Of a DNA stretch of 64,000 nucleotides, positions 2,822 to 57,483 are shown piece by piece (the first letter of the stretch is position 1; each line of letters starts with the position of its first letter). The stretch covers positions 1,488,001 through 1,552,000 of the forward strand of contig CM062380.1 of the NCBI GenBank assembly GCA_031310005.1. Direction: 5' to 3'. The notes beneath the pieces were generated by a model, which worked only from the letters and a program-made list of their open reading frames with translations, was not told the origin of the DNA and ran no database searches. The translations under genes and the position numbers were made by a program. The DNA is from Dactylellina haptotyla (taxonomy: Eukaryota; Ascomycota; Orbiliomycetes; Orbiliales; Orbiliaceae).

Positions 2822-5598
2822 ATGGTATCAGAAAAAGTGGCAGAACAGGCGCCGGAGAAGGAAGACGCCCGTCCTGTCAATTCTATCAAACTGATAGTGG
2901 AAGCTGGGGACGGCCAGCAGTACGAAATCCCGCTTACATCTCTCAACGCTGCTGTTGACGACGATGCGGGTACCGGTCAAAAGGCCAAAGCGAAGAGGGT
3001 TGTAAACGGCCGCAGAACTCGACGCGGTTCGTGCACGGATTCGGAGATTTCCGATACCGAAGGCCGGGACGATAAGGCAAACGGCGTAACAGACACGGAT
3101 TCTGGTGATAAATCTGGGGACGAAGATGCGAAGGATGGAGAGCAAGAAGAGCCGAAGAAGGAGCGCGGAAGCACTCTCGAATATAAACGCCTCGATTACT
3201 TGTGAGTTCTAAATGGAGATTTCTCTAAATTTTGTTTAAAGATGATGATATCTAACTGGTTCTCTCTGCGTTCTCAGGTTTGATTCTAAGACATATCAAT
3301 TCTACCTCGCGGAGACCACGACCCCAAAAGATCGTACCACCGATGAATACGAGCACTATGCCTTTGTTGTTCGGCGTCTCTTTACCCAAAGCAATGAATA
3401 CAAGGTTTGCTTCCCCCCTGAATTTCAAGCCATTGTCAGAGCATACTAGACTAACACCGTTCTAGCATACTGTGGTAGATATCAAATCACTGGAATTGAA
3501 GACATTCTTGCAGAAGGCATTTGAGAACGTCAGCGGCCTAATGTGGACTGAAGACAAACCCTGCTTCACATCAAACTTCATATTTCTGAAAGAAGGAATC
3601 ATTGGAGATCATCTGAAGTCTCTCCAGGGGATGTCAGAGAAAAGTGATGAGATAGCCAAGCAAATCTCTGAAGCTGAGCTGCTCCTCAAGTTTGTCGAAG
3701 AGGATTTCAAAGAGATCAGAGAAAGGCTCAAAGCCCATCTGGAAGAAAAAACCATCACATTCGATCTTCTGGGCTATATTATCCACGCCGAGACCATTCT
3801 GATCCAGAGAGACCCTCTTGACGAACCTATGATCGTGGTGACAAAGGGTACGCAGAGGAAGACGAACATGAAGGGAATCAACGTTTTCTCGATAGAGGCA
3901 TCTTACCTCCTACATGAGGGAAAGTGAGTTATCCAATATCCGCCCCGATTTAAATTTGTGTGAATATCATGACTAACCATAACTGCTTCCGGATCAACAG
4001 AAATTTCAAGTTTCAGACTAGTACAACTGAAGTTCCAGAGTTCCAGGGAATCAAGCCTATTACCAGCTTATTCTGCTATCCGTTTGAATACGACCCTCAC
4101 TATGAAGAATTGAAAGAGGAAATCACCGAACGAGGCAAAAAGTTCTGCCGCCTCAACACGCCTGACATCCCGGAAATTCCCGGCGCCTACAGATCCTACC
4201 GAGCGCTCGCCTACAGAGTTGGACAAGAAGGTGTTCAACGGTTATGGGTTGACGGTAGAGTTATGGTTGACTCTATGGCATTCAAGAGTGGTGGAGCCAA
4301 CAAGAATCCTAGAATCCACCGCTCAAAACGACCACCACCTCTGTTGATCGGAGAGTATCCAGAGGATGATTTCTCGATTACTCAGGATAAAGCTCGAGCT
4401 TTGGCATATGAAGGCACCCGAGAGCCTGAAACCATGTCGGATATGGACTTCTTACTTTGCGAATCCAAAGTGGACGGTTTCTCCTTCAGTGATGGCTTTT
4501 GGCGTAAGTAGTCACTTAGATTTTCTCCTCGGTGTATAATTGATACTAATCCTCGAGTTTGACTTAGTGCACTTTTCTGTCAGAGAACTCGAAGAGATCA
4601 AGTGGAACGAAGGCGCCTTCGATTCGCTCGTTCTGCCTGCCAATCAAAAGATTGTCATTCGAGCTCTTATTGAGAGCCATACGAAGGCCATGACATCTAT
4701 TCAGCAGCGAAAGGTTGGATTCGACGACATCATCCAAGGGAAAGGAAGAGGACTCGTGATCCTACTCCACGGAAGACCAGGCCTCGGGAAGACGTTGACA
4801 GCTGAAAGTATCTCTGAAACGCTCAAACGACCCTTGTACTTCCTCTCTTCGGGGGAACTTCCAACTGATCCGGGCCAACTAGAATTACAACTTGCCAAGG
4901 TGTGTACCCCTAATTAATAACATGACTGCCAATTGGGACATGTGCTAACCACGAGATAGACTCTCGCTCTCGCAAGCTCCTGGGGCGCCGTTCTCCTTAT
5001 TGATGAAGCTGATATTTACCTCGAGCAAAGAAGTATTGGTGGCGACATAAGACGAAACGCACTCGTATGCGTCTTTCTCAGACAGCTCGAGTACTTCCAG
5101 GGGATCATGATCCTTACGTCAAACAGAGTTACAATCCTCGACGAGGCGTTCCAAAGCAGGATCCACGTTGCTTTAGCATACGAGGGTCTTGGAAAGGACG
5201 CGAAGATTCAAATCTGGAAGACTTTCATCGAGAAGGCGCTGGAGTCAGAGGAAGGGCTGGAGTTGACTAGGATTACCTCCAAGGATGTCAAGGTTAAAAA
5301 GTGGGCTACTTCTGACACTGATGCATCAGAGTTGACCGCAGATGATTATGAGCAGCTTGCTCGCTACAATCTCAACGGCCGCCAAGTAAGATTTTATCTT
5401 GTCCCCCAAACAGTACCGTGCATGATTAGACTGACATGGATGAAATTGCAGATCAAAAACATTGTCCACACGGCACACTGCCTTGCAACAAGTCTTGATG
5501 AGCGTCTCAATTTGAAGCACATCAGGCAGACGATCGAGGTTACCGAGAGCTTTGAGCGGGCATTCAAGGGCGCGCACACGGGTAATCTTTATACTTAA
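2822..5598 (+). CDS. Fungal AAA-type ATPase (DUF7025-like N-terminal region plus AAA core), 7 exons
   Basis: Predicted exons are 2822-3201, 3278-3404, 3466-3923, 4001-4503, 4568-4899, 4960-5385 and 5452-5598, which join in frame to about 790 aa. The start ATG at 2822 sits in a good context (ACCATGG). The N-terminal ~130 residues are charged, acidic and low complexity. The middle carries the region preceding the ATPase in this fungal family (PGAYRSYRALAYRVG). The C-terminal third is an AAA module: Walker A GRPGLGKT near residue 558, Walker B VLLIDEAD near 611, and a sensor-like MILTSNR. The product is probably a soluble ATP-driven remodelling factor. Members of this family are numerous in filamentous fungi and their substrates are mostly unknown, so no specific role is claimed. 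All six introns have GT-AG ends. Confidence 0.88.
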
Positions 5599-33557: not shown

Positions 33558-35209
33558 CTACTGACTCAACCACCTGCGCTCCCTCAAACTGGCCTCACCC
33601 TCGGACCCTCCGAACGCCGCCTTCCAGTCAAAGTACTCAGCCAACCTAAGCTCCGCATAAGCAGCATAGTCAAAGTCAATCTGTGAAATCGTGGCCTGAA
33701 TGAGCGCCCAGATGCCCCAGTAGAAGCCAGGTATCCCTCTGAAGCTGTCAACCTCATCCATAACCTGCTGGACTTCCTCATCGCGCACCTCCACGCTCTC
33801 GAGCGGCTTGTCCGTTTTGAAGCTGTGGAAGGACTCGAGATACGCTTTGACGAATACGCGGCGGGCCGGGGAGGTCGGGATGAGGTTGTAATCGCAGTCG
33901 AAGCCCGTCCATTCGGAGAAGTGGTTGGCGATGTCGAACGCTCGCTCTGTGGGGATTGCGTATCTGCCCAACACCCCGGGAATATGTTAGCTCGCTATTT
34001 CTTATCTATCATACCGCATACCGTGTGCATAACTCGTTATCTATCATATCCATTCTCCATTGATAGATAGATAAATGAAGGGGGGAAGGAAGAAGAAGCT
34101 AAAAAAATAAAATCAAGAAAGTAATGCTTACTCATAATCGATAAACGTAACCTGGGTATCGTTGCTGCTGCCAATATCCGCCGGACAGAACCCCGTACGC
34201 TTCTCCTTCTTCGGGAGCACGATCACATTCCCGCTCAACAGATCGCAATGCCCAAACACGATTTCTCCTAGGCCTCGCAAGCCGGCATTCTCCTCGATCC
34301 ACTCCAGCTCTCGGCGTAGCTCCTGCTTCTTCTCCCGCTCGGCTGCTTTGTTCTCCGGAAGAGCGGTGATCCACTTGTCGAGCGTGAGCCATAGCTCGCT
34401 CTCGCCGGGGAGCACCGTTTTCTCCGTGTTGCCTGCAGCTGTACCTTCGGTGGAAGCAGCCCCGGCAGCACCCTCGACGGTTGCCTCCTGCCCTCTTTCG
34501 AGACCGAGGATGTCATCGTCAGAGTCGGCGTCATAGATGAGCTCCGGCACGCCGCTGTCAGGGGATATACGTCTGCGCGGGCCCATTGCGTCGAGGGCAT
34601 CCATGAGGCCTGTGGTATCGATCTGTGCGTGCCATTGGCCGAGACGTTTGGCTACAGCGGTGTATACTTTCGGCGTGGAGAGGTCTTGAGGCGAGGTCAC
34701 GCGGCCGGGGACGAAGCGGTAGATGAGGCCATTGTTGAAGCGGGCGAGCAGCGGCGGGGCGAGGGTGTGCTGGGCGAGGTAGAAGTGGTTCTGGCACTCC
34801 CCTGTCAGATTTTCACACAAAAGTTAGCAATCAATCAATTTCTATATATATTTTTTATATGACCGGTGGAGCTGGATGGGGGTTTGCTATAGGTGTTATG
34901 TTGCATACTTCCACGATCGATGAGCACGTTGGTGCCCTTGCCGTACGCCCGGAGCAAGGCCGACTCCATCTCATCGATGGAGGCGGTCTGCTGGCCCGTG
35001 GCAGGGTCGGTGGAGATCTTCTTGTGGACGCATTTGAGCAGCGTGTTTGTGATACCGTCCGTGAAGCGGATGAAGTCGAGGTGGGCGGGATCCCAGTCCG
35101 GGAATAACGTCAGGATCAAATGAGTTGCGCAGGCGTTTGCGTCTGCTTGGGAGAACGTTAGGGGCAGGAAGGTGAGGCCCTCTTCATCGGCAGAGTTTAA
35201 CATTGACAT
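33558..35209 (-). CDS. Ethanolamine kinase (choline/ethanolamine kinase family), 3 exons
   Basis: Predicted exons are 34909-35209, 34132-34801 and 33558-33963, joining to 458 aa. The N-terminal lobe has FTDGITNTLLKC, the nucleotide-loop version typical of ethanolamine kinases, followed by GKGTNVLIDR. The catalytic Brenner-type motif is GHCDLLSGNV. The choline-kinase motif VTFIDYEYA spans the exon 2/3 junction and supplies the second Mg-binding acidic residue. The enzyme phosphorylates ethanolamine (perhaps also choline) with ATP, the first step of the CDP-ethanolamine route to phosphatidylethanolamine, in the cytosol. A low-complexity acidic and Ala/Thr-rich insertion of about 60 residues lies between the lobes (DADSDDDILG onward), probably a disordered loop. 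Family assignment is firm; substrate preference is inferred. Confidence 0.92.
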
Positions 35210-36587
35210 CTCTTCGCTTTTTCCTTTCGTGTTCTTTCTTCTGGTATCTGGAAATGATGTCCTCGAAGGGAGATTATTTAGACAGATAGGACGGGAGAGA
35301 GAGAGAAAGAAGGAGCACTTTTTTTTCCTAGCTTGTGAAAGAAAGGGCGAGAGCGAGAGTGGGAAAGGAAAATATAAAATGGCTGTGGCTAAATATTTAT
35401 TTTCGATGCAGCAACTGCAGTGACCAGTTTAGGGGTGCCTGCATTAACATAACATAACAGCCAGATCAGATAGAAGATCCAACGAGCTATTCCGCAATTC
35501 TATTACTGTCACTATCACTCAATCGAAACCGACGGTCGTGTACATGTGAGCGAGACTAGCAGCAGCTGTCCGTGGGAAACAGACACACGAGCACGCACGA
35601 GACCATCAGCGTGGAGACCGCAGTGACGAACGGGACGCTGACGAAGCTCTAGAACCATCCCGGCTCCTGCAGCGAAGGACAATTCGAACGAGAGGGAAAG
35701 ATGGGGGGCTCGGTTCTTTGGATTCTCATTCGACCGACGCCGCCCTACCCGTGGGCAAATTGGCGGAGAGAGAAACAGGGTCCACAATGCGATGTCGCTT
35801 TCTGTTTCTCCTGGCTGCTTGTGCCTGCCCTCCTTCACAGCAAGAACAATTTTTTGTTGGGGTTGGCTGTGTGATGGATGGGCCTTAGCACATGCCAATT
35901 TGAATTTTCTGTGCGCTATCAACCGGATGGAGGTCGCCAATATGCACCTCTGCAGGTATGCATGCCTGCCCGGCAAGGGAGTTCGAACTCTCTTTATCAG
36001 ATTATGCAGCTGGTCGGCCCCAGGTTTGAACGGGGAGCGGTGGAATGTTCTGTTCCTTGGTGGCCCACCGGTTCTGTTCTGGTAACTAGCTGTGCTAGCT
36101 TGCTTGGAAGCCAGCTAACCGTGGCTCAGATAAGTGCGGGCTAGCTTGGTTGGAGCCACTCGATCATCGCAACCTCTTGCCACGGACCGACGTAGATGCT
36201 GCTATTTCCTTGAGAAGAACCCGGCAGACGACTCCTCGTCGGATCCGGAGGCGAAGGCCCTTTTTGTGTCGTGTGATCAGAACGAACGCGACAAACGGAG
36301 AAGGTTGGTGTCGTTTGCCTCCGCGTTCCCCTTTTTCCTGTGCTCTTCGTTTCTTTCCGTCCTTCCCTTCGAAGACACCAACGAAATGCGAACCCTCCCG
36401 CCGGGTTACAAACAAAACGTCGACATCCCACGTTAACCACCATTACGTAAAGACGCAGTTCTACGAGAAATCGAATTGTCTAACAGAATAAAAATATAAA
36501 AAATGCATTGCTTTTTCGACGCCATAGACGTCGACAACTGTACCCTAATCTATACAACAGAGCTAGCTAGATACCCAGGAGCAAATT
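35210..36587. other. Intergenic between ethanolamine kinase and SDR genes
   Basis: A purine-rich stretch at 35280-35380 is probably the kinase leader. The open frames at 35515-36491 overlap each other on both strands, and none has a domain. No gene is called. Confidence 0.5.
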
Positions 36588-37376
36588 CTAAATCAACAAG
36601 TAACCACCTTCAGCCTGCAGCGTCCTCCCCGTGACAAAGTAGTTTTTCATGCAATAGAGATAACTCTCCGCCAGGTTCTCCGGTGTACCAATCGTCCCCG
36701 TCAACGTCAAAGCCTTATACTTCTCCACAATCGACTTGACCGTCGCCTCGTCACCGAACTGAGAGAACAGCTCGGTCTGCACCGCTCCGGGGCTCACGCA
36801 GTTCACCCGAATGGGCTTCATATCCTTCGCCAGACCCCTCGTCATACCTTCCTTCGCCGTCGCGAACCCGATAATGGCACTGAAGTTCTCGCCGGGCTTC
36901 TCAGAGTTGACGCCGCTGGTGTTTGTAAACGACGACTCCGCTGAGACGTTCATATACGTCGTTGCGTGTTTCGCGAGGAACAGACCGCCAAAGTAGCGGA
37001 CTTTGCCCATCTTCATGGCGTCTTCGTAGGTCGCATCGGCGAGCTTGACGAGCTTGAAGCTGTCGCCCGCGGTGTTGACGACGTGGTCGAGCTTGTGGGT
37101 GTTGTTGTCCGTGGCGAACTCGTAGAGGGATTTGATCTGGTCTTCCATGTCGTCACCGGATAGATCGCAGGTCTTGCCGCTGATGCGGTCACCCGCATCC
37201 GGGTAGGAGGCTTGGATGCGCTGGATGGTCTTGTCAATGTTGGCTTGCCTGGAGGAGGCGACGATGACGCGGGCGCCGTGCTCGACGCAGGCTTCGGCGA
37301 CGCAGAAGCCGATACCTGAGGTGCCGCCGAGGACGAGGACCCGCTTGCCTTGCAGTTTGTTGATGTATTTGAGCAT
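36588..37376 (-). CDS. Atypical short-chain dehydrogenase/reductase lacking the catalytic Tyr
   Basis: This single exon encodes 262 aa, normal for classical SDRs. The nucleotide-binding motif is GGTSGIG (about residues 18-24) and a VNTAG stands in for NNAG. The later RVNCVSPGAVQTELF is standard. At the catalytic YxxxK position the sequence is FATAK, with Phe171 in place of Tyr and Lys175 kept. From memory, a fungal SDR subfamily with the same RGLA.D..PIRVN..SPG context often lacks YxxxK, so this may be a family trait rather than a lesion. A cofactor-binding fold is well supported, whereas normal oxidoreductase chemistry is doubtful. No intron and no frame breaks are seen. The next gene is divergent. 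Confidence 0.9.
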   Translation of the reverse strand: MLKYINKLQGKRVLVLGGTSGIGFCVAEACVEHGARVIVASSRQANIDKTIQRIQASYPDAGDRISGKTCDLSGDDMEDQIKSLYEFATDNNTHKLDHVVNTAGDSFKLVKLADATYEDAMKMGKVRYFGGLFLAKHATTYMNVSAESSFTNTSGVNSEKPGENFSAIIGFATAKEGMTRGLAKDMKPIRVNCVSPGAVQTELFSQFGDEATVKSIVEKYKALTLTGTIGTPENLAESYLYCMKNYFVTGRTLQAEGGYLLI

Positions 37377-38172
37377 TGTGATATTATATTATGGTATACG
37401 AGTGCAATTGATGGTATATATTAGCAAACGGTAGGGTGTGTGTAGAACAGCTATAGCCAGCTAGCTATACTCGATATCGATATCAATTGAAAAATTGAAA
37501 ATTAATTATAAAAGATATAGTATAAATTTATAGATATAAATAGAAAGCCATATCGTAGCTCGATTGGAACAAAAGATAGAAGACGTCAGAGCTTCCGAGA
37601 CACACGGCCGGACTTCTCTTAAATACCAGCTATGCCCGACCATCGCCGCTCCATGATCTCCGACGTGCGACCTGGCAACCCCGCTACCGAGCTACCAAGC
37701 CAGGCCGCACTCGTATTGATGCTGTGCCGCTCGTATGCAGATTAAATCCGGAAGCTTCGACCCCCTTGGGCCCATGGGGTTTAGATATTTAAGTCCGGGG
37801 TCTGCTACCCGTTAGGGCTAGATCTGGTAGGCGAGACTGTCGACCATCCGAAGTGGCTTCGATCTGCCCGTGAAGCTGTGTCGGTGGCATGGAGTAATTC
37901 CGGCTGCCCAAACAGGCAATCTTCTCGGTGGCACGGCGTTAGGAGAGCTGTCCAAGTCCGGCTAGGGCCCGTTGCCGCCAAGACGTTATTTTGCAGAGGG
38001 TCCCAAACAGGGAATGATTAAACAACAGCCACAACACAGCAACAGCACCCACAACACCACGAAAGAGTGCTGCCCTGGCTGCACGGGATCGCGGACTGTT
38101 CTGTCGCATCCACAGCTATCCGCGGCTTCGTTAAGTGACCCCCTCGTCTACGGGTAATCCGGTAATACAGCC
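37377..38172. other. Divergent promoter region between SDR and DUF3405 genes
   Basis: It is AT-rich near the SDR start, with a palindromic tcgatatcga at about 37471-37480. It turns GC-richer toward the DUF3405 gene. No coding exon is recognised. Confidence 0.55.
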
Positions 38173-40622
38173 ATGCATACCCTTACACAGTCAGACAAAC
38201 CAGGCACGATCCAGCAGGCGGTGGCATCGATATCCACAATGGTCGATCTCTCACGATACTTCTCTAAGCCTACGATGGCACGATATTCACAGCTCCCGTG
38301 GTCCTCGTCGGACATTGAAAGCTCTCCATCACCATCATCATCGTCATCCTCTTTATCCTCGCCTATATCGCCTTCTTCGCCACTCCTACGCCCGATATTA
38401 GACCTCGATGAGAAGCCCCTGCGGCCAAAACCCAAGCGCCAGGGTCCATCTGCATACGCACTCCGAATCAACCGAGTGAAAACCCTATTCATCCGTATTC
38501 TCTGCGGCTGCGTCTTCCTCACCATCATAACCATGGTCTTCGCCCTTAGCGGGATGAAGTCGCACACTACCCGGAAGCTCTCCAAACACCTTGACAGCAG
38601 CGCAATCTGGGAGAGTTTTCCAAAGTAAGTAATTGATTAAATCCACCCGCTCCTAAATACTCTATAATATTAGGGTTATATCATCAAAAAATGGAGAAAC
38701 TGACTGCCCGTCTCCGAATCCAGAATGATAACCTACTACAGAGGTCTCTACGAGCTCGTCCCGCTTGCCGACAACATCCCAGAGAACACGGGGCCGATGA
38801 ATACCCCGAAAGCACCGAGACCCACCACCGCGGTAGCACGACTGTTCAAGCGCGCAAAGGACGGCAAGAAGGCAAAGAAACAGAAACCAAAGCGCAAACC
38901 GAGACCGCTGCCGCCTACAGTGCCTTACTCGCCATACGCTGCCGAACATGTGGATTGTTCTTCTCTCATGTCGAATTTCACTAGTGGGTCGACAGTGATG
39001 AGGGTGTACAAAGGCGTGCACAGGGGTATGCCGGATCCGTTCTACGGGTCCTACGATCTCCTCGGTATCGATCGTGACGTCTGCTTCGAGCGCCGGACGA
39101 GACTAGGGATGTACGGCCACGTGGACCGCGAACAGATACCAATGGAGGCGAAAGACGAAGGGGTGCAATATGATCTCGAATGGAAGGATTTCGATTGGAA
39201 GAAAGTGCAGGAGACGTGTGTGCAGATGAATGGAGATAGATATGCTAAGATCCTACCTTCGGATAAAGATGAAACGAAGGGAAAAAGAACAGATGTCGAG
39301 AAGCAGAAGAAGGCGCGGACAGCATTGGTATTGAGAGTTTGGCATTCGTACGAATGGACGCGGCTGGATTACGTCAATCTTAGAAGTTTGATCACTGAGT
39401 TGAACATTAACTCTGGTGGGGAGTATGATGTCCACTTGTTGATGCATGTACAGGACCAAGATATCCCAATCTGGACAGAGAAGTCGGAGTATAACCGGGT
39501 TGTGAGGGAGAGTATCATCGCAGAGTTCCAGGGACTGGTGACCCTGTGGAACGAAAAGATGATGTCAGCGATGTACCCAAGCTTGGGAGTTGATTGGAGG
39601 GAGTTGCCGATGCACGGGTAATTACATTTCCTTACAAGATGCTCTAAAGTGATGAACGAATGGCTAATCCTACCTGATGGTTTAGGGCATACCGCTCCGT
39701 CTGGTTCCCAATGCAATACTTCGCCCGCGAACACCCAGAGTACTCGTACTTCTGGAACCTCGAGCTCGACATCAGATACACCGGCCACTGGTACCACTTC
39801 CTCGAAAAAGTCAGCGCATTCGCAAAGGCACAACCTCGCCGCGGTCTCTGGGAACGCAACAGCCGCTTCTACGTCCCATCCGTCCACGGGTCCTGGTCCG
39901 ACTTCACCGCCATGGTGGCGAACGAAGCAGACGTCAGCGAGCGAGTATGGGGACCCGTCGCCGTTGACGGTGTAAACCTAACATCCCACACGCCCACTCC
40001 GCCGTTTGAAACCCCGGAAGAGGACGAAGGATATACTTGGGGTGTGGGTGAGGAAGCCGATCTGATCACTCTTAATCCGATTTTCGACCCGAAAAACACC
40101 ACTTGGGGTCCCCGCGACGATTTCACAGGGTACGGTCGTGAACGACCTGCGAATTCCGAGGTGAACCCGTACTGGACCGGACCACCGCGGAGGGCAGCGA
40201 TCGTGGCGGTGTATAGATTCTCGCGGAGGCTGTTGGATGTGATGCACGAGGAGAACACGTTTATGCATCACACGATGTTTACTGAGATGTGGCCGGCGAC
40301 GGCGGCGTTACACCACGGGTTGAAGGCGGTGTATGCGCCCCATCCGGTGTTTATGGATCGCAGATGGCCTGGGAAGTATCTGGCTAGCGTGTTGAATAAT
40401 GGCAAGTTTGGGAGTTCGGGAGGTAGGCAGAGAAGTGTGTTTGGGGATAGGGAGCATCATTTTATGGGTAGTGGGTTTTATTATGGGAGTTATTGGCCGA
40501 GAGGGGTGTATAGGACTTGGATGGGGGAGGTTTGGGAGGGCAGAGGTGGGGAGGAGTGGGAGGAGGTGCATGGGAGGATGTGTTTGCCGGGGATGCTGCT
40601 GCATCCTGTAAAGGACTTGTAG
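38173..40622 (+). CDS. DUF3405 type II membrane protein (probable Golgi/ER luminal enzyme), 3 exons
   Basis: Predicted exons are 38173-38624, 38742-39617 and 39686-40622, joining in frame to about 754 aa. A Ser/Pro-rich cytosolic N-terminus with a long Ser run precedes one membrane helix (about residues 104-126), followed by a basic stem. The C-terminal half has the DUF3405 signature: YFWNLELDIRYTGHWYHFLE, GLWERNSRFYVPSVHGSW and a late histidine-rich GDREHHFMGSG. DUF3405 proteins occur in many filamentous fungi and have a glycosyltransferase-like layout, but I know of no established activity. The preceding helix and luminal orientation are inferred. An internal ATG at 38239 is an alternative start. 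Exon 2 begins after a CTGAC branch site and CTACAG acceptor, which removes several stops. Confidence 0.88.
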
Positions 40623-42418
40623 ATGGGAGGAAGGAGGGAGGGGAGGCGTGAGGACCCTGAAGAAAAGTGGGATGTCGTGGGATATGTGGGAGTGGAGGGA
40701 AGCTAGGAACGAAATGGGGTTGGTATATATCGAAGTACTTGGACTACTTTTGGTAGTTGAAAGGTTTGGATATGGCGTTATGCTCTTTTCTGGCGGGGTT
40801 GCATTTTTAGCGATTTTTTAGCTCTTTGGATATAAACTAGATGTCGGGCATGTTCTTATGGGTTTTTATGGAAGTTACTATATGATGTTTAATGATAGTC
40901 GAGATACTTATATTCAATTATTTGGTACACTGTTTTCGCTGGTGTTTCTATGAATAAGCTGCCCTTATGATCTCATAGCACGGGTGCATTGGGTTTCGTA
41001 ACAGATTCGCAGCTTCCATGGGTGAATGATATCCAAAGTTCATAGCTTGCTCTCGCTGCTACACCGTGCTGGATTCTTGTGATGTTAGAAAATGTCAGCC
41101 AACCCTGCCTGGGATATGCCATTATGGCTGGTGGATTGGGCTCACGCGACCAACTTCCCCGGATAATAATCCACATACCAAAGCCCCGCTCGGTAGTTAC
41201 AATTTGCAAACTTGACAGCTAAAACATCAAAACTACCCAAGACGAAATAAACCCTAAAAAGAAGGACGTCTGCGTAACCTGAAAAATGAAGCTATTGGGT
41301 AGGATTTACAGCCGTGCTCTCTGACATGTGTATGCGGAATGTGATTATCTTCGAGATCTAGAGCTCGCCTGTTTTGACCAAACCGCCATGCCCTCAACGT
41401 CGAGCATCTTCAACGAGCGCTACAAGGGAACCCGTATGTGCATATCTCATCGGTTGTCCCAGTCCCGAACACACTCAACCTATCATAGTTCCCCTCTACG
41501 GCGTGGGTATCGTGTCTTCGAAGCCTCCATCTTCTCCACCGACGAAAAAGAGAGAGAGAGCCAAAAGCTTAATACCAAGCTTTTAGGTTCAGCTGCGAGA
41601 TCTTCATACTTCCTTCCCCCCCGCATCAGAGTGCTCTAGTCTGAAAACAGCAAGCGGACGCAAAGGCGAAAGATGTATCTTCGGCTGCCGCCCTAAAATG
41701 AGTGATCGTGGGACAGCCCAGCGAGCCAACCAAGTGAGCAGCCTCTCAGCGTGCACGCCCCCCTGTCCAGATGGAGGCCGTAGCCAGCCCTCGTGCTCTG
41801 AACCAGTGGACAGGAAGCGTTCGTTTTCAGGGGAGAGAACATTGGACGAAATCGTATCTGACCTATTTTTCCCCTTCTAGGTACCCAACTTGGCTCGGGT
41901 TCGCCTGTGTTGCAGGAGGGGTGGGGCCAATTCCCGTAGGTACCCATGTTTTTTGCTCCGTGTGAGAGCTGCGAAATGCGATCATAGTGCACGACCAGTA
42001 CCTCACGACTCTTGGAGTATGATTATTGCAGCAGGAGAAGGAGGAAGAGACGAGGGACCGGACAGGATATCATCTGGTGGCTGATGGGCCGAGTACGATG
42101 GACCCGATGAGGGGTCCCTTCTCCCTCTCCTCCGGGGCTTACGTATTATGCTGTTACTCTTGAATGTTCTTGTCGTGGAGAATTCTCCGATCGACCGCTT
42201 ATTGCCCAACCAGCAACAGCTGACACGTTAATTAACATGCCGCAGAGGCTATTATTATAATATCCCATCAGGGTCACTCGGGCTTTACTTCTCTCATCCT
42301 CCTTATTACTTTCCCCTCCGCCCGTTTCTCTCTTCTTTTCTTCTTTAGAATCTATTTCATTCTTACGTAGCTTTTTTATTTTGTCTTTCCCAGAGAGACT
42401 CTGTCCGCCGCCGCAAGG
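40623..42418. other. Intergenic upstream of PPN1
   Basis: The 3' UTR of the DUF3405 gene lies at the left. A two-exon-like frame of about 47 codons (41388-41586) is the only coding-like signal and is too weak to call. A TATA-like tract (attattataata) near 42250 may serve PPN1. Confidence 0.5.
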
Positions 42419-45094
42419 ATGCGGTGCATCTGCCCGTCGTTCCTGGTGCTGCTGCTCGCAGCGAGGTTGGATATTTCATCGTCACCATTCTTCGCGTCCG
42501 CGACACCAATCGTCGGTACGCCGAATGGTGAACAGAAACCGTTAGTGGTCGTACCGCTACGACAGCCCGATGAGCCCGTTCGGAGAAAATTGCACGGCAG
42601 ATTTCTACACATCACTGGTATGTTCCCTCTTTTGACTCTCACACTCTCACTGCCTCATAACTTATGACGTCGAGCACAAGTTTATTATCTATTTACACAT
42701 TCTAAATTGATATTTCTACAGACGTCCACCCGGACCCCTTCTACACCCGCAACTCGTCCGCCTCGAAATCCCACGAATGCCACAGCGACAAAGGCCGCGC
42801 AGGGTACTGGGGTGCAGAACGATCTGACTGCGATTCACCCTTCACCCTCGCCAATGCCACCTTCGACTGGATCCGGGAGAATCTGAGAGACCAGGTCGAT
42901 TTCGTGGTTTGGACGGGGGACAGCGCACGCCACGACAATGACATCAACCACCCGAGAAGCGAGAGCCAGATATACGAGTCGAATCGGATGATGGTGCAGA
43001 TGATGTATGATGTGTTCAAGAAGGTTAGTTTCTCATGCGGGGATATCTAAAGCCCGGCTAGCTCAATCGGTAGAGCGTAAGACTCTTATATCTTAGGATA
43101 TCTTAAGGCTGCGAGTTCGAGCCTCGCGTTGGGCTGATTTTTTTTCAATAACATTTCCCTCTTGTTCTGAATAACTTTTTTTTTTTCACGATTTCTTTTT
43201 CGGGTGGTGAAACTCTTTTTTGCTAGCCGTGGATGTCTGGGACCGGGATTGATTGATTGGTGGTTTGCTAACGTCGATATACGGACTAGCCTATTCCCGA
43301 CAATGACGATAATCCGAACAACGATCTGATTATTCCAGTGTATGTTACACCCCTATCGTAAACTGGATTCCAATGATTCAACAAGATGGAAAAGAGAAAG
43401 AGAAAATGCTAATAATAATAATTGGGGACGAAATAGTATACCGACCCTCGGCAACAATGACATCATGCCGCACAACATTATGCTCCCCGGTCCGTCCTCG
43501 ACAACCCGCACATATCTCGATATCTGGCGCAACTTTGTCCCCGAAGAGCAAAAGCACGTTTTCGAGCATGGCGCATATTTCTGGGTGGAGGTTATCCCGT
43601 CCAAACTCGCCGTCTTCTCGCTCAACACGATGTACTTTTTTGCGAGCAACGCCGCTGTAGACGGGTGCGATGATCCGAACGAACCTGGGTTCCAGCAGTT
43701 CACCTGGTTGAAGATCCAATTAGACTTGATGCGGATGAGGAGAATGAAGGCTATGCTTATTGGGCACGTGCCACCCGCGAGGACCAAGAATAAGCAGGCG
43801 TGGGATGAGAGTTGTTGGGGAAAATATGTGGTCTGGTTATGGAATTATCGAGATGTGGTAGTGGGGAATATTTATGGGTAAGCTCTTTCTTCTTGTGATT
43901 ATGTCGGCAAAATGAAATTGTTGGGAAAGATGGCTAATTGATTGTAACAGGCATATGAATCTGGATCATTTCATGTTGCTGGATAGCAAGGTCGCACATA
44001 AAGTTCTCGAGGATCCGAAGGCCACATCTCTGAAGGGTATATCGACCTGGGAGGAACTAGTACACGCTGAAGCTGCGGGACCGTATCTGAGCGAACTCAG
44101 GGAGGTGCTTTCGAAAATTCCAGAGCCGCCAGAGAAACCTAAGCCCAAAAAGCCAGAGGGTCCAGAAAAGCCGCCAACTATCGAGAAGAAAAAAGGGAAG
44201 AAGGGCAAGAAAGACAAGAAAGGAAAGAAAGGAAAGAAGGGAAAGAAAGGCAAGAAGGGTAAAAAGCCGAAGGATCCGAAGAAGGAACATAAAAAGTACA
44301 TTGAGAAACTCGGCGGTAAATACGCGGAACGTTACATCCCGATCTTCGTGTCGCCATCCGTCATACCGAATTACTTCCCTTCGTTGAGGATCTTCGAGTA
44401 TAACATCACGGGATTAGTCGACGACGAAGGATTTCTGATCGATGTTCCACCGGTCGTGGGTGGAGAAGACGTCGGCCCGGCTCCACCAACGAAGCCATCA
44501 CCTGATCCCAACGTTCCGAGACCACCGCCAACTGGATCCGCACCGGGGCCTGCATACTCGCCGCAGACGTTATCAATCACCGGTATCGAACAGTATTTCG
44601 CCAATCTCACAAAATTGAACGGTTGGGTTCCCAAAGAAGAAGATGATGACGATGATGATGAGGATGCGATTTTGCCGCCGGGTGATGGGGATAAGAAGAA
44701 AAAGCCCAAGAAGCCTAAGAAGCCCCGACAGCCGCCATTGCCTTTCACTTTTGAGCTTGAGTATTCGACATCAAATGATACCAAGGGTTACAAGATGAAA
44801 GACATGTCTGTGCGCAGTTTTGTTAAACTAGCAGATCGGATGCGCGATTTAGATATTAAAGCTAAGTGTTTTGATGTCAAGGATTCGTCACTCTGTGACA
44901 ACACGGATGAATACTACGAGTTTGAAAATGCTGGCGGCGGTGGGGACGGAAAAAAGAAGAAGGGTAAAAAGGGGAGGAAACATAAGAATCACCACAAGAA
45001 ACAGCAGAAGAAGAAGGATAAACTATGGCACTTTTTTGTCAAGCGGGCGTTTGTCGGCGCTGTGGCAGATGATGATATTCAAAAGGTTTCCTAA
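42419..45094 (+). CDS. PPN1: Vacuolar endopolyphosphatase Ppn1, 5 exons
   Basis: Predicted exons are 42419-42617, 42722-43023, 43290-43339, 43437-43877 and 43951-45094, joining to 711 aa. The N-terminus is hydrophobic (signal anchor for delivery to the vacuole). The calcineurin-like phosphoesterase motifs appear in order: DVHPDPFY (67-74), WTGDSARHDND, GNNDIMPHN (189-197), LIGHVPP and YGHMNLDHF. The enzyme cuts inorganic polyphosphate chains internally in the vacuole. The last exon has an extraordinary Lys/Gly run of KKGKKGKK type around residues 411-443, a poly-Asp tract (about 640-660 in from the start of the phosphoesterase exons, nt 44637-44670) and further Lys-rich blocks near the C-terminus. 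Intron 2 (43024-43289, 266 nt) contains a complete tRNA-Lys gene in the same orientation. The other introns are 73-104 nt. Confidence 0.95.
43052..43135 (+). tRNA. tRNA-Lys (anticodon CTT) with 11-nt intron, nested in PPN1 intron 2
   Basis: A full cloverleaf folds. The acceptor stem GCCCGGC pairs with GTTGGGC (two G-U pairs), with T as discriminator. The D arm is GCTC/GAGC. The anticodon stem TAAGA pairs with TCTTA. The anticodon CTT is at 43085-43087. The variable loop is 5 nt, and the T arm is GCGAG/CTCGC with TTCGAGC loop. An 11-nt intron (43089-43099) lies one base after the anticodon, the canonical position. A box (TAGCTCAATCGG) and B box (GTTCGAGCC) are intact. T8 at 43138-43145 is a Pol III terminator. 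Mature length is 73 nt. Confidence 0.96.
43138..43145 (+). terminator. Pol III T-run terminator of tRNA-Lys
   Basis: Eight consecutive T start 3 nt after the tRNA 3' end. A second T-run at about 43176-43186 could act as a back-up terminator, still inside the PPN1 intron. Confidence 0.85.
44190..44290 (+). repeat. In-frame AAG/GGN repeat encoding a Lys/Gly tract in PPN1
   Basis: Repeats of roughly 9 nt (aag-aag-ggn) encode tandem Lys-Lys-Gly units within the last PPN1 exon. Synonymous codon changes between copies show it is not a fresh slippage product. Confidence 0.85.
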
Positions 45095-45619
45095 GGGCTG
45101 AAAGCGGCGTCTTTTTTTTTTCAAATACAAGTTCGGTTTCATTCTGCCATGGGAGAATGAAACGGTACGCTCTGGTTGCGAGACTGGATTTTGGAGTAAG
45201 CTTAGTATGGTTTTATGGGTTGGTTTTTTTCTTCTTATTTTCCTTTAGCGGGTCCTCGTTATTGCATATGGATGTTTTCTCTCTATTTTTGTTTTGGTGG
45301 TTGAACATCGTTTTAAACAGCACATTACAGGCGTTTTTTTATCAGTACAACTGGGTTTATTTTCACTTTTTGACACTCTGTATAAGTACGTATAAAATCC
45401 AAACTGTAGTAGATGTTTACATATATGAAATATGTACCAGGTGATTGAAAACATGGGATTTATTCGCCTCATCTTGCAGTTGAAATACAACCCTGAAACA
45501 CAAGAAAGAAAATCTCTATCCTGGGTATCTTTAGACAAAAGGAAAACCTAGGAGATTCGTTGTTCAACAAAGGTTTTTGAAACTTTAGCAAGTGAAATCG
45601 CCTAGCTCAAGTACCTGGA
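45095..45619. other. Intergenic between PPN1 and an unknown gene
   Basis: A T-rich 3' UTR and an AT-rich promoter. No gene is seen. Confidence 0.65.
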
Positions 45620-46477
45620 ATGTCGAATCGAAGAAGACCACCATCACTCCCTTTGGAGTCGAGGTTACCACTCCCGTCGAATGACAGTACTTACAACCCG
45701 TCCCCTGCACTGCGTCCGGACAGACCATCTGATGACACCGCCTCAATCACAAGTACATCGTTTTTCCGATCTCCAAGACAATCATTCGCTCAACCTTCGA
45801 GCTCAGAAACCTCCCAAAATACTCCCAAGAGAGTTGCTTTTCAAACCCCGCCTAATAGTTCCCCACGAGGATTGGAAAAACCTCTCCCTCGAACTCCCAT
45901 CGAACCAACGCCACCATCTGCCTCGCCGAATAGCCCCAAACTACGCACCATAGATCTAGACCCGTCATACCCACAACCCCATTTCCACCGAGCGTGGTAT
46001 AAGGAATGCCATCATCGTTTGGACTCCGTGCGTGTTCCCCTTGGTGCTCGAGGAGAGGTGGACGAGAAAGGATGTCCACTGAATAACCACAAACTATGCA
46101 TGTGTGACAGTCCGGATAAATACACCTATGAACAAATCGACCTCGACGCGGATGAAGACCCCTATTTCCCTGAAAAAGTCGTGGTAGAAAATTTCTGGGC
46201 GTTCTTGAAGGAGCGCAAGAAGACGGAACGGAGGAGTTTTGGGTTACCTGGTAGTATCGGGGGCAGCAGTAGCGGGGTAGGGTATGCCAAGAGTCTCGTT
46301 GAATCGGTGAATAAGAGTGTTAAGAAGGTGATGAGTTCAGAAGCGAAGAAGGAGAAGAAGAAGGTATTCCGCTTTGTACCTGTGTGGGTCCGCGCGGAAG
46401 GAAGATGTGAGGAGTGTACTAGGAAGAAGGCAGACGCGCCACCTGAGAGGCGAATATTTGGGCATTTGATATTGTAA
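45620..46477 (+). CDS. Protein of unknown function, Pro/Ser-rich N-terminus, Cys/His-containing C-terminal part
   Basis: This ATG-initiated frame encodes 285 aa. The first ~115 residues are Ser/Pro/Arg-rich and probably disordered, with SP/TP sites. A compact part follows: HRAWYKECHHRLDS, GCPLNNHKLCMC, an acidic YEQIDLDADEDPYFPE and VVVENFWAFLKERKK. It ends with a basic coiled stretch, FRFVPVWVRAEGRCEECTRKK and HLIL. The Cys/His pairs (CHH, CMC, CEEC) could bind zinc, which is speculation. The stop TAA lies inside a perfect donor sequence (TTGTAAGT), so the real protein might splice on to a further exon. I do not recognise the family. Confidence 0.7.
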   Translation: MSNRRRPPSLPLESRLPLPSNDSTYNPSPALRPDRPSDDTASITSTSFFRSPRQSFAQPSSSETSQNTPKRVAFQTPPNSSPRGLEKPLPRTPIEPTPPSASPNSPKLRTIDLDPSYPQPHFHRAWYKECHHRLDSVRVPLGARGEVDEKGCPLNNHKLCMCDSPDKYTYEQIDLDADEDPYFPEKVVVENFWAFLKERKKTERRSFGLPGSIGGSSSGVGYAKSLVESVNKSVKKVMSSEAKKEKKKVFRFVPVWVRAEGRCEECTRKKADAPPERRIFGHLIL

Positions 46478-47209
46478 GTAGACGAGTTAAGCTTTTCGCT
46501 TGAGGGGTACTTACCGTCCTTTCTACCGGTCTAGATAGTTATTAGGTTAGTATGCAGATTTCCCCACGTTTACGCGTAATCGGGCCTTATGCAAGATGCG
46601 TGTGAGCGGGAAGCAAAGTTATGATGTAACCTTGTCGATATCATTCGCTTTGAACCATGGTTCTCCAGAGCTCTACTTCGTGGTGCTCAAACGAAAGCTT
46701 ATTATTTCATGAATTCAAAGGATTGAGTTTTTAGTCATAGACCACGCGCTAGGAATTATTCCGATCCTCCGTCCAAAAGGCTTAGCACTAGCCATATGAG
46801 CAGCGGGGTAACGCAGCCAGAGAACATGACAGGAGGAATGCGTGGATGAGTGGTTGACATGTTGCAACAAGTTTTGCGTTGTGTCACGGGAACCTTGCAG
46901 CTGGGTGCTGCGTGAGGGTCTCAGCTGCGCACAAACCGGGCGACTGCCAAATTCGGGAGGATAACATGGACAACGCAGATGCCCTTTGTTTCTGCCACAG
47001 GAGTAAGAAGGCGGCAAAGTAACTTGTCATATATATCGTGAAAGCTTGGGGGAGAAAAAGGACGGGCTCAGGAGTGTCAGAGAATTCTATTCGAAACCTT
47101 CCAAGTTCTCAGGATCTTTTGTAGTTTATTTCGCCTACGAAGCTGCGGAGTCTATCATTGATAACGCCGCCGAATGCATTAACAATATTGATATCGCCAG
47201 ACCTAAAAT
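46478..47209. other. Intergenic upstream of the CorA-like gene
   Basis: No gene is seen. The 100-codon minus frame at 46715-47017 starts at TTG and has no domain. Confidence 0.55.
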
Positions 47210-49971
47210 ATGACAAGAAGCCGGAGCGTATCGCCTACAGGGCCTGGAAATGGCCAAGGCCCCTCCAGAACACCGTACGAGGCTCGAGATCGCAGCGTCT
47301 CTCCTACCACACATCAACATGCACAGATGCAGCGGACTTCTTATGAAGCCCGCCAGTCTTCTCAACATCGAAGCCCCTCAAGAACCACCGCCGGGAGGAA
47401 CAGGAGTAATTCCAGAGGAACACCGGTTACCACTTCTCCCAGCCGTGGGCGACCCGTGGGGCCTCAGGCGCCGCCCTCGATATTCTCCCACTCTGGACCG
47501 TACTACCTTCGCAGATCGAATAGTGACAATCAACTCTCTCACAACTTCAAGAAGAAGGACAACTCTGGTAATCCTGATTTACTCATGGGACCGGCGGGGT
47601 GGAGTAGCACTTTGGCGACCTTCACTGCTGCAGCGAAATTCAAGCCTGCTGTGCTCCCACCGTCTTTTGGAGAGCCTGCACTACCGGATACAGAGGCAGA
47701 AATCGAAGCGTCGATACATGATTACTATAAGGATTGCGGGTTAGATTTCGATATACTAGATAAACAAGAGGTATACGAAGTTGCGGAAGAGAAATTGACG
47801 GGCAGGGAAATTAAGAATATGGTGGTGGATTTCGGTAGAGAGAGCTCGTGGGTTGCGCAAGACGTACCGACCGAGAAGGCGGAGGCATTGCTGAATAGCT
47901 GGGATGAGACGAAGAGGCCAAAAGAGCTTGGGACTCGGTGGATGTGAGTATACCAGCTTTATGTAAAAAATAATGGATGATTTGCTAACGCTATTTGGTA
48001 GTGCGATATTTGATATGCATGAGCAAGGCGATTTCTTAAATGTAAGTATACTGAATTTTGGGGTTGGTTGAAAGTAACTCATAGGGCTAATCGAGCGGCG
48101 ATATATAGAAAATTCTTCTAAAATACGGGCTTTCGACAAGACTACGAGCTACTATGCTTTCCCCTCCTGGCCGAGGAAATCTTGAAATTGCCCAGAAAGT
48201 ATGGCACTGGTCAACGGTGGAGTACAGCCCGCAGTGTACGTATCAAATCTTCACCCCATGAATCGTAAAGTTGAAGCATACTAATGTGAAAATTGTAGTC
48301 CTTGCCGTCGGATTCAACATGCTCCACAATACCGTATCCCGTAAGATCCTAAAAAAGGCAAGGGAGGACTTCCATGATGCCGCTGTTCTCGAAGAGGCAG
48401 CCCGTATTGGCAATCAAGTTGCCCGCGAAGACGGTATGGGCTGGCTCAAAAATCTCTTCCAGAAGAAAGAAAGCCCGGCGAACTCGACAATTCTTCCATA
48501 CGCTCACTCCCAAGCTTCTGGCAGCGGCGGTAGCCAAGCCGAAAAAGCCTCTGGCGCATCAACCAATCCCCAAGGTTTATTCAGTGTAATCTACAAGCGT
48601 ATGACCACCCTGGGTAAACAACCAGCCGAAGACGACGACGATTTCGAAACCGTACGAGAGGCGCTACGTCGTCAATTCTCTTCACGGCCCAAAAATAAGA
48701 AGGGCAAAGGCGCTGCTCGAAGGAATGGTAATCTTCGCGGTGATACCGACTCCCTAGATGATGAGATGAGTCTGAATCAAGACTACGATGACGATGAATA
48801 CGACGATGTATTCGAATGTAACGAGGCAGAGGAGAACTATAATGACCTTCATTACAACCCTCACATGTTGAGACTCTGGATCTGGCTCATCATGACGCAC
48901 GACGGAACTGTGATTTCTATTCACGAGCCTATTCCGCAGATGAAGAAGGATATCACGAACCCAAGGGATATAAAAGATACTGTATCGCATATTCGTCGGA
49001 ATATCCGTGTTGTATTCCGCTGTCTCTCGAAAGCTGGACTTGCCAAGAAGAAGAGCGGATCGAACGATGTCGAGGTGGCAATGGAGCAAGGTGCATTAGT
49101 TGTAAGAAGGGCGTTCGGCCAGGCGAGGGATCTGTTATTTTACTATCTTTTCGATGATTGGTATGCCAGCTGGAGCTTGGCAGTCGACAGAGCGCATCCA
49201 TATAGTAAGGAGCTAAATGAGATTGTAAGTTACGTACCGCGATCCCCGGCGTGTGAATACACTCTAACATAGATAAACCTACACAGAGAGGAGAGGATCC
49301 AATGTTGGACCACATTGACAAGCTGCACGATATCGCTCGCCGCCTCGCAAGTTTGAAGCGGGTCTATAGCAGCTACGAACTCATTCTCGACCGACTTCTC
49401 GAGAACAAAGCCTACTTCAGGGACCCGGACAATAAATGCTTCAGTATCCTCTCTATGAACCGGTTCGAGAGATTGAAACATCGGATATCTCAGCTTGCTG
49501 TCAGTGAGATCGAAGATTGCGAGAAGGAAGCTAACGGATTAATCTCCTTGGTAAGAAGTTCCAATCTAATGCAGAATTACATTTTAGAATACTTCGCTGA
49601 CAGTAAGTATTCCGTAGACATACAATCGTCTTAACTGGCGCGAAACAAAGGCGGTTGAAAGACTCTCTCTGCTTTCGGTAGCTCTGGCAAAAGTCACAAT
49701 AGTTTTCTTGCCGCTATCTATCATCATGGCGTACTTTGGAATGAATGACGTAGATGGCATATCCGGAGAGTACGACTACCGTAGCTTCTGGGGAGCAGCT
49801 GGTGTTGCTCTTGGTTTGACATTTGTCTTTTTGTATTTCGTCGGCGGGCTTGGAAGTACGTTTGAGGATATCGGAAGGTGGGATATCCTACGGAGGGTGA
49901 CAAAGAGTAAGAGGAAGGTGAAGAGAAGGCTTGGTTATTGGAGGAATAGTGCGAAGGGTCGTTCGAATTGA
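47210..49971 (+). CDS. CorA-family divalent metal transporter (Mg2+ type), 7 exons including a 15-nt microexon
   Basis: Predicted exons are 47210-47943, 48002-48041, 48109-48235, 48299-49224, 49287-49550, 49588-49602 and 49651-49971, joining to about 808 aa. The N-terminal ~130 residues are Ser/Arg-rich. The middle is a cytosolic funnel-like region with an acidic insertion (DDDEYDDVFE). The C-terminus has the CorA hallmark: a first membrane helix ending in YFGMN (the selectivity GMN motif), a short loop, and a second helix (GVALGLTFVFLYFVGG) followed by a basic tail. CorA proteins form pentameric Mg2+ channels or transporters, and fungal long forms sit in the plasma or vacuolar membrane. Joining exon 5 to exon 7 in frame requires the microexon, giving SLNTSLTAVERLSLL, which resembles the conserved helix before the first membrane segment. 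Confidence 0.88.
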
Positions 49972-50366
49972 TTTTGCCTGGTTTGATTTTTCTCGTTGCT
50001 TGCCTTACGTTTGTCCCGGTTTAAATTTTGTATGATTTTATAATGAGTTTGCATTCTATTAGAATAGCTAGGTGCATGGTACTCGGAGTATAAAGGTACA
50101 GGAAATCAGCATAGAGCAACGGTATATATATTAGTTGACTGAAGCATTAGTAAAGAACATAGATCCTTATTACCTCATCCTAGCACGTATGTCTATTCTG
50201 TTAAATATCTTGAAACAAAACTAGAAAAGGTGAGGGTATTTGAAAAATGAAGTTGATCTCACAGACTGATTCTGGCCTCATTATCCGCCAGCCATGCTCC
50301 TTCATATTTACAGGTTCGCCTGAGCATCTTACTGTTGGCCTTCTACGCGCCGTAGGGTAGCTTGTA
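49972..50366. other. Convergent 3' spacer between CorA-like and kinase genes
   Basis: AT-rich, no gene. Confidence 0.7.

Positions 50367-57483
<7,117 letters not shown>

Follow-up and report, generated by a model that had tools for sequence, protein, structure and literature searches.

tRNA genes within introns have been described before, both from animals and from a fungus. Of the 609 tRNA genes of C. elegans 44% are intronic, a share no different from chance, and 56% of the intronic genes lie in sense; according to the available part of the paper the tRNA–host pairs are conserved across species and a host promoter can restrict the tRNA (PMC4999229). For the basidiomycete Pleurotus ostreatus the accessible portion of the genome analysis gives 16 of 167 tRNAs (9.58%) in introns (PMC5040776). 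An effect on the host has been measured with a Pol III-transcribed MIR element placed into the intron of a reporter, where, as the excerpted text states, the antisense orientation lowers EGFP expression by 20–30% and the sense orientation has no measurable effect (PMC5358760). Of the 352 ncRNA clusters sequenced from Trichophyton rubrum, 82 are intronic; the intronic entries in the part of the paper at hand are snoRNAs and uncharacterised ncRNAs, with no tRNA found among them (PMC3890542). The available sections of the Cryptococcus genome paper likewise yielded no mention of tRNAs in introns (PMC3990503), and among the matches listed in a literature search for endopolyphosphatase/PPN1, tRNA and intron there was, by title, none on a tRNA in a PPN1 intron. 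The tRNA-Lys(CTT) gene described here, which is nested in a gene for a PPN1-like metallophosphatase of Dactylellina haptotyla, is a further example of an intronic tRNA gene.

We analyzed a stretch of 64,000 nucleotides of the D. haptotyla genome (the window), and the features of the locus are collected in Table 1. The ribosomal protein L3 encoded by this genome has its closest PDB entries in 7r81, 8oo0 and 7olc, from Neurospora and Chaetomium, which fits a filamentous ascomycete; the lectin family PF07367 gave no match here, nor in the control genomes. Twenty kilobases around the locus (34001–54000) were scanned with cmscan and the Rfam tRNA model RF00005, and the tRNA gene was the only match reaching the gathering score (54.4 bits, E 1.9e-9, gathering score 29). 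ARAGORN detects the same gene, but leaves it untyped as 'ctta'. Excision of the tRNA intron, which begins at the usual place one base 3′ of the anticodon, results in the anticodon loop CTCTTAA, i.e., the anticodon CTT. An earlier note on this DNA had described a complete tRNA-Lys(CTT) with a perfect cloverleaf, A and B boxes and an 11-nt intron of its own. The completeness, the intron and the two boxes are borne out by our analysis; the A-box consensus is TRGYNNARNNGG and the B-box consensus GWTCRANNC. The perfection of the cloverleaf was a slightly generous description: no pair is flagged as non-standard in the cmscan alignment, but the seven pairs of the acceptor stem include two G.U. When the mature 73-nt tRNA is folded freely, the acceptor, D and anticodon stems form and a hairpin AGGCT/AGCCT is preferred over the usual T stem. 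We counted the loss of the T stem in the free fold against the explanation as an ordinary tRNA; for the T arm, however, the family model carries more weight than the free fold. The gene is probably active.

Table 1. Features of the nested tRNA gene and of its host gene (positions within the window)
Feature	Position	Strand	Remarks
PPN1-like metallophosphatase gene	42419–45094	+	711 aa; five exons
Host exons	42419–42617, 42722–43023, 43290–43339, 43437–43877, 43951–45094	+	single frame across all five
Host intron 2	43024–43289	+	266 nt, GTTAGT...TGCTAAC...TAG; from frame and splice signals
tRNA-Lys(CTT) gene	43052–43135	+	84 bp, mature 73 nt without CCA; cmscan RF00005
A box TAGCTCAATCGG	43059–43070	+	read from the sequence
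tRNA intron TATCTTAGGAT	43089–43099	+	11 nt; one base 3′ of the anticodon
B box GAGTTCGAGCC	43113–43123	+	read from the sequence
T8 Pol III terminator (predicted)	43138–43145	+	starts two bases past the tRNA
Further T-runs	T11 43176–43186, T5 43196–43200, T6 43216–43221	+	after T8, within intron 2
Branch-point-like CTAAC	43268–43272	+	final A lies 18 nt from the end of intron 2

The host protein carries the calcineurin-like metallophosphatase domain of the acid-sphingomyelinase-like group, as can be judged from a match to the Pfam family Metallophos (PF00149, E 1.9e-6) and from the closest solved structures, SMPDL3B and SMPDL3A (best E 1.6e-24). Ppn1 is absent among the 15 PDB matches, and none of the NCBIfam models matches the first 399 residues. 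We presume that the gene is likely PPN1 itself and not a different enzyme of the group. By eye the N-terminus is signal-like. A search of the assembly returned five matches, each of them an exon of the same gene, which is thus single-copy. The introns measure, in order, 104, 266, 97, and 73 nt, so that intron 2 is indeed the longest of the gene, as had been claimed; alternative acceptors of intron 3 would also preserve the frame and give a protein of 723–728 aa.

Frame and splice signals place the tRNA gene entirely between the donor of intron 2 (28 nt 5′ of the tRNA) and the branch-point-like CTAAC, which fits the branch-point consensus. The frame of exon 2 runs into a TAA at 43048–43050 just before the tRNA and an in-frame TAG immediately precedes exon 3, so that a splice is required to keep the frame. 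From frame and homology we infer that the host mRNA is spliced across the tRNA. The anatomy proposed earlier holds: a Pol III gene with an intron of its own sits in sense within a Pol II gene, in one of its spliceosomal introns. Within the intron there is a 12-nt near-repeat GGATATCTAAAG/GGATATCTTAAG (43041–43052 and 43096–43107), one copy just before and the other inside the tRNA gene, which we put down to chance; an identical twin of the gene (see below) also has GATATC just upstream.

The C-terminal half of the host protein is rich in lysine, with tracts encoded at 44150–44310 and 44650–45030 of the window. Lysine makes up 83 of the 711 residues, 52 of them being encoded by AAG, and from exon 5 onward there are 70 lysines in 380 residues; for comparison, the lysine content of nine long reading frames of the window, host exon 5 among them, is 6.6%. 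These tracts accompany a nested tRNA which reads AAG. A bolder side reading would be that the Lys(AAG) tRNA is paired with an unusually lysine-rich host beyond chance. Since tRNAs serve from a common pool, the pairing is probably a coincidence.

How often tRNA genes nest in this genome was assessed with a survey in which 63 of 1538 candidates were scored, giving at least 62 tRNA matches as a lower bound. Twelve of the matches, several of them clustered, lie on one contig of 249,811 bp (C11), which is most likely an unusually large mitochondrial genome, and 50 lie elsewhere. The surroundings of all 50 were retrieved; the flanks extend over about 3 kb or more in 30 of them, the nested gene included, and over about 1 kb in 20. 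ARAGORN added three predictions in these surroundings, at least one of which, a Lys(TTT) in locus L054, may be false. Two rows were removed as duplicates, namely a tRNA-Pro present in two overlapping loci and locus L023, which repeats the tRNA of locus L022 together with its immediate flanks, and 52 distinct tRNA predictions were obtained. L022 (C4:3650900–3657100) and L023 (C5:511400–517600) are tRNA-Met genes whose immediate flanks are equal and whose coding surroundings match in part; this looks like a segmental duplication.

A tRNA was taken as a candidate for nesting when stretches with a coding score of at least 8 lay on the same strand on both sides of it and not more than 600 nt apart. 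Two of the 52 tRNAs pass at this threshold, the nested Lys(CTT) and a tRNA-Thr (L016). The latter was rejected as a second case; it stands between neighbours that are separate genes, one encoding a WD40-repeat-like protein that ends at position 2980 of the locus and the other a carrier-like protein that starts near 3297 (both named by eye). With the threshold lowered to 6, 11 loci pass; all but the nested Lys(CTT) and L016, nine in number, are lost again when it is raised to 8. After the screen and the inspection of L016 the nested share is therefore 1 of 52 nuclear tRNA predictions (95% interval 0.05–10.3%), obtained with a hexamer coding score which was trained on 53 kb, can miss short exons and did miss the 50-bp exon 3 of the host gene. 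This gives no sign of a tendency to nest. The earlier statement that such nested tRNAs are unusual in fungi fits the sole case left among the 52 predictions in this genome, but it sits less well with the intronic share in the available part of the Pleurotus ostreatus report (PMC5040776).

The nested tRNA gene is redundant. A comparison of its 84 nt with the whole genome returned four loci, the nested one included. One of them is a twin identical in 84 of 84 positions, located on the same contig on the minus strand (C2:933690–933773), and the two remaining loci show 81 and 80% identity. These two genes also encode tRNA-Lys(CTT), sharing 66 and 65 of the 73 mature positions with the nested copy (7 and 8 differences) and carrying introns of 13 and 12 nt at the same position; by inspection some of the differences are paired changes, which preserve the pairing in the anticodon stem and the T stem. 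The twin (locus L042) is apparently intergenic: in the coding-potential screen its nearest coding stretches lie 684 nt 5′ and 959 nt 3′ and on opposite strands. The 50-nt flanks of the nested gene and the twin are no more alike than shuffled sequences (out of 500 shuffles, 358 and 339 scored at least as high), and a short duplication including the flanks was rejected. From this it follows that only the tRNA was duplicated, or that the flanks have diverged, or that gene conversion maintains the likeness of the two genes.

We consider it quite probable that we are dealing with an ordinary, redundant, probably active tRNA gene which lies in sense in an intron of a PPN1-like gene, and that the two products need not interact. 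Pol III would initiate at the A and B boxes within the gene and halt at the T8, and the resulting pre-tRNA would undergo ordinary trimming and splicing. Pol II would transcribe the entire host gene, and the spliceosome would excise the 266-nt intron together with the tRNA by means of the upstream donor and the downstream CTAAC/TAG. Both products would be expressed and may leave each other unaffected. Most likely a duplicated tRNA gene landed in a pre-existing intron, and the nesting, which would be close to neutral, may have been tolerated since the tRNA and its terminators fit between the splice signals.

The 3′ flank of the nested gene is rich in thymine runs. The earlier note had mentioned the T8 terminator and a second T-run; the T8 is present, but the runs of at least five T in the host intron number four rather than two. 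We compared the 100 nt past the tRNA end among 51 tRNAs (the Lys(TTT) in L054 was left out with a 3′ flank that is too short). The nested copy has 30 T in runs of at least five, the next flank 29 and the mean is 12.5; this rank of 1 in 51 belongs to one of several statistics examined once the sequence was seen and should be read as a lead rather than as a test. No other run in the 51 flanks is as long as the T11 of the nested copy, a T10 coming next, and by the number of runs the nested copy ranks second of 51 (four versus five). Runs of T5 are absent from the other three introns of the host gene. The T-rich flank together with the sister introns devoid of T5 might be a sign of selection on the nesting. 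Possibly nesting has selected for a reinforced Pol III termination, the nested copy having gained both the T8 and three more T-runs, which would prevent Pol III from running on into exon 3; we regard this as unlikely, yet worth keeping in mind. If true, it would be a testable fungal case of overlapping Pol II and Pol III genes becoming insulated from each other.

Could the nesting be an artifact of the gene model, with PPN1 being truncated and ending before the tRNA or having another exon structure, so that the tRNA would not be truly nested? The 50-bp exon 3 was not called by the coding-potential scan, and the model is a prediction from the nucleotide sequence. On the other hand the frame is continuous over the five exons, the splice signals agree with the consensus, the top alignment with SMPDL3B (residues 59–341) crosses the joint of exons 2 and 3 at residue 167, and the assembly has no second copy of the host gene. 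A wrong gene model is thus very improbable. We give as little credence to a coupling at the level of processing, in which RNase P and RNase Z would excise the tRNA from the pre-mRNA of PPN1 and thereby provide a second source of tRNA or cause a partial loss of mRNA. The sense orientation of the tRNA would allow this, and when the 266-nt intron is folded as a whole most of the pre-tRNA stems are retained; but with Pol III signals and a terminator of its own the tRNA gene does not require a Pol II source, and the C. elegans authors, in the available part of their text, rate the splicing of a tRNA from an mRNA as theoretically possible (PMC4999229).

More weight has to be given to a regulatory coupling, either with Pol II traffic or the chromatin of the PPN1 promoter restricting or licensing the tRNA copy, or with Pol III slowing the transcription of PPN1. 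In C. elegans the sup-7 tRNA depends on the promoter of its host gene and Pol III occupancy is lower at sense intronic tRNAs, as far as the excerpted report goes (PMC4999229); together with the conserved tRNA–host pairs, the promoter effect makes the absence of interaction unsafe as a default. The sequences upstream of the tRNA genes also bear on this question. In the other 51 tRNAs there is an enrichment of AT near position −35 (0.68 versus about 0.53 further upstream), and a CAA occurs within −12 to −1 in 27 of the 52 tRNAs, compared with 5–15 in the other 12-nt bins; in these upstream statistics the first base of the tRNA was set by default in 7 of the 52 rows, where the start of the A box was not recognised. 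This suggests that, in addition to the A and B boxes, tRNA genes in this fungus have start signals further upstream. In the nested copy the −35 region falls in exon 2. The copy also has no CAA in the 12 nt upstream, and for want of this element it may be weaker than its twin. However, as a sign of a weak promoter these elements are not decisive: the CAA is missing in 25 of the 52 tRNAs overall, the nested one included, and the −35 region is ordinary, since its TATA-like match is 5 out of 6 (13 of the 52 tRNAs score 6, 18 score 5, and 21 fewer) and 6 of 10 bases at −40 to −31 are A/T, a common value among these tRNAs. As to effects on the host, the MIR element cut reporter expression in antisense, but the sense insert in the same reporter, whose orientation corresponds to that of our tRNA, was without measurable effect in the part of the study at hand (PMC5358760). 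The nested tRNA is moreover redundant with its identical twin, which also argues against the coupling of polyphosphate turnover to translation that had been thought conceivable. Neither for this coupling nor for the other consequences raised earlier, transcription interference and cleavage of the pre-mRNA by RNase P/Z, did our analysis yield support. We therefore judge a regulatory coupling to be improbable and keep to the explanation by an ordinary redundant tRNA gene in a host intron.

At this locus a Pol II gene of a fungus harbours a Pol III gene in sense, which makes it a small and clean natural example of such nesting. The identical, apparently intergenic twin is a built-in control for the effect of nesting on the tRNA output and on the host mRNA, and it makes both the cost of nesting to the tRNA output and the T-runs as a response to nesting measurable.

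Compared with the described systems, the locus resembles the C. elegans cases such as sup-7 in C03B1.2 in that a protein gene contains an intact tRNA gene within one of its spliceosomal introns; it differs from the picture in the available part of that report in being 1 of 52 and known from sequence alone, whereas in C. elegans nearly half of the tRNA genes are intronic, the pairs are conserved and promoter effects have been shown (PMC4999229). With the MIR in intron 1 of the mammalian Polr3e gene it has in common that a Pol III unit is nested in the intron of a Pol II gene; unlike our case the MIR is an antisense SINE and not a tRNA gene, and interference has been measured there, as described in the accessible text (PMC5358760). 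With Pleurotus ostreatus the locus shares the location of fungal tRNA genes in introns as given in the excerpted analysis; that fungus is a basidiomycete, unlike the filamentous ascomycete studied here, and the likeness refers to the intronic location (PMC5040776).
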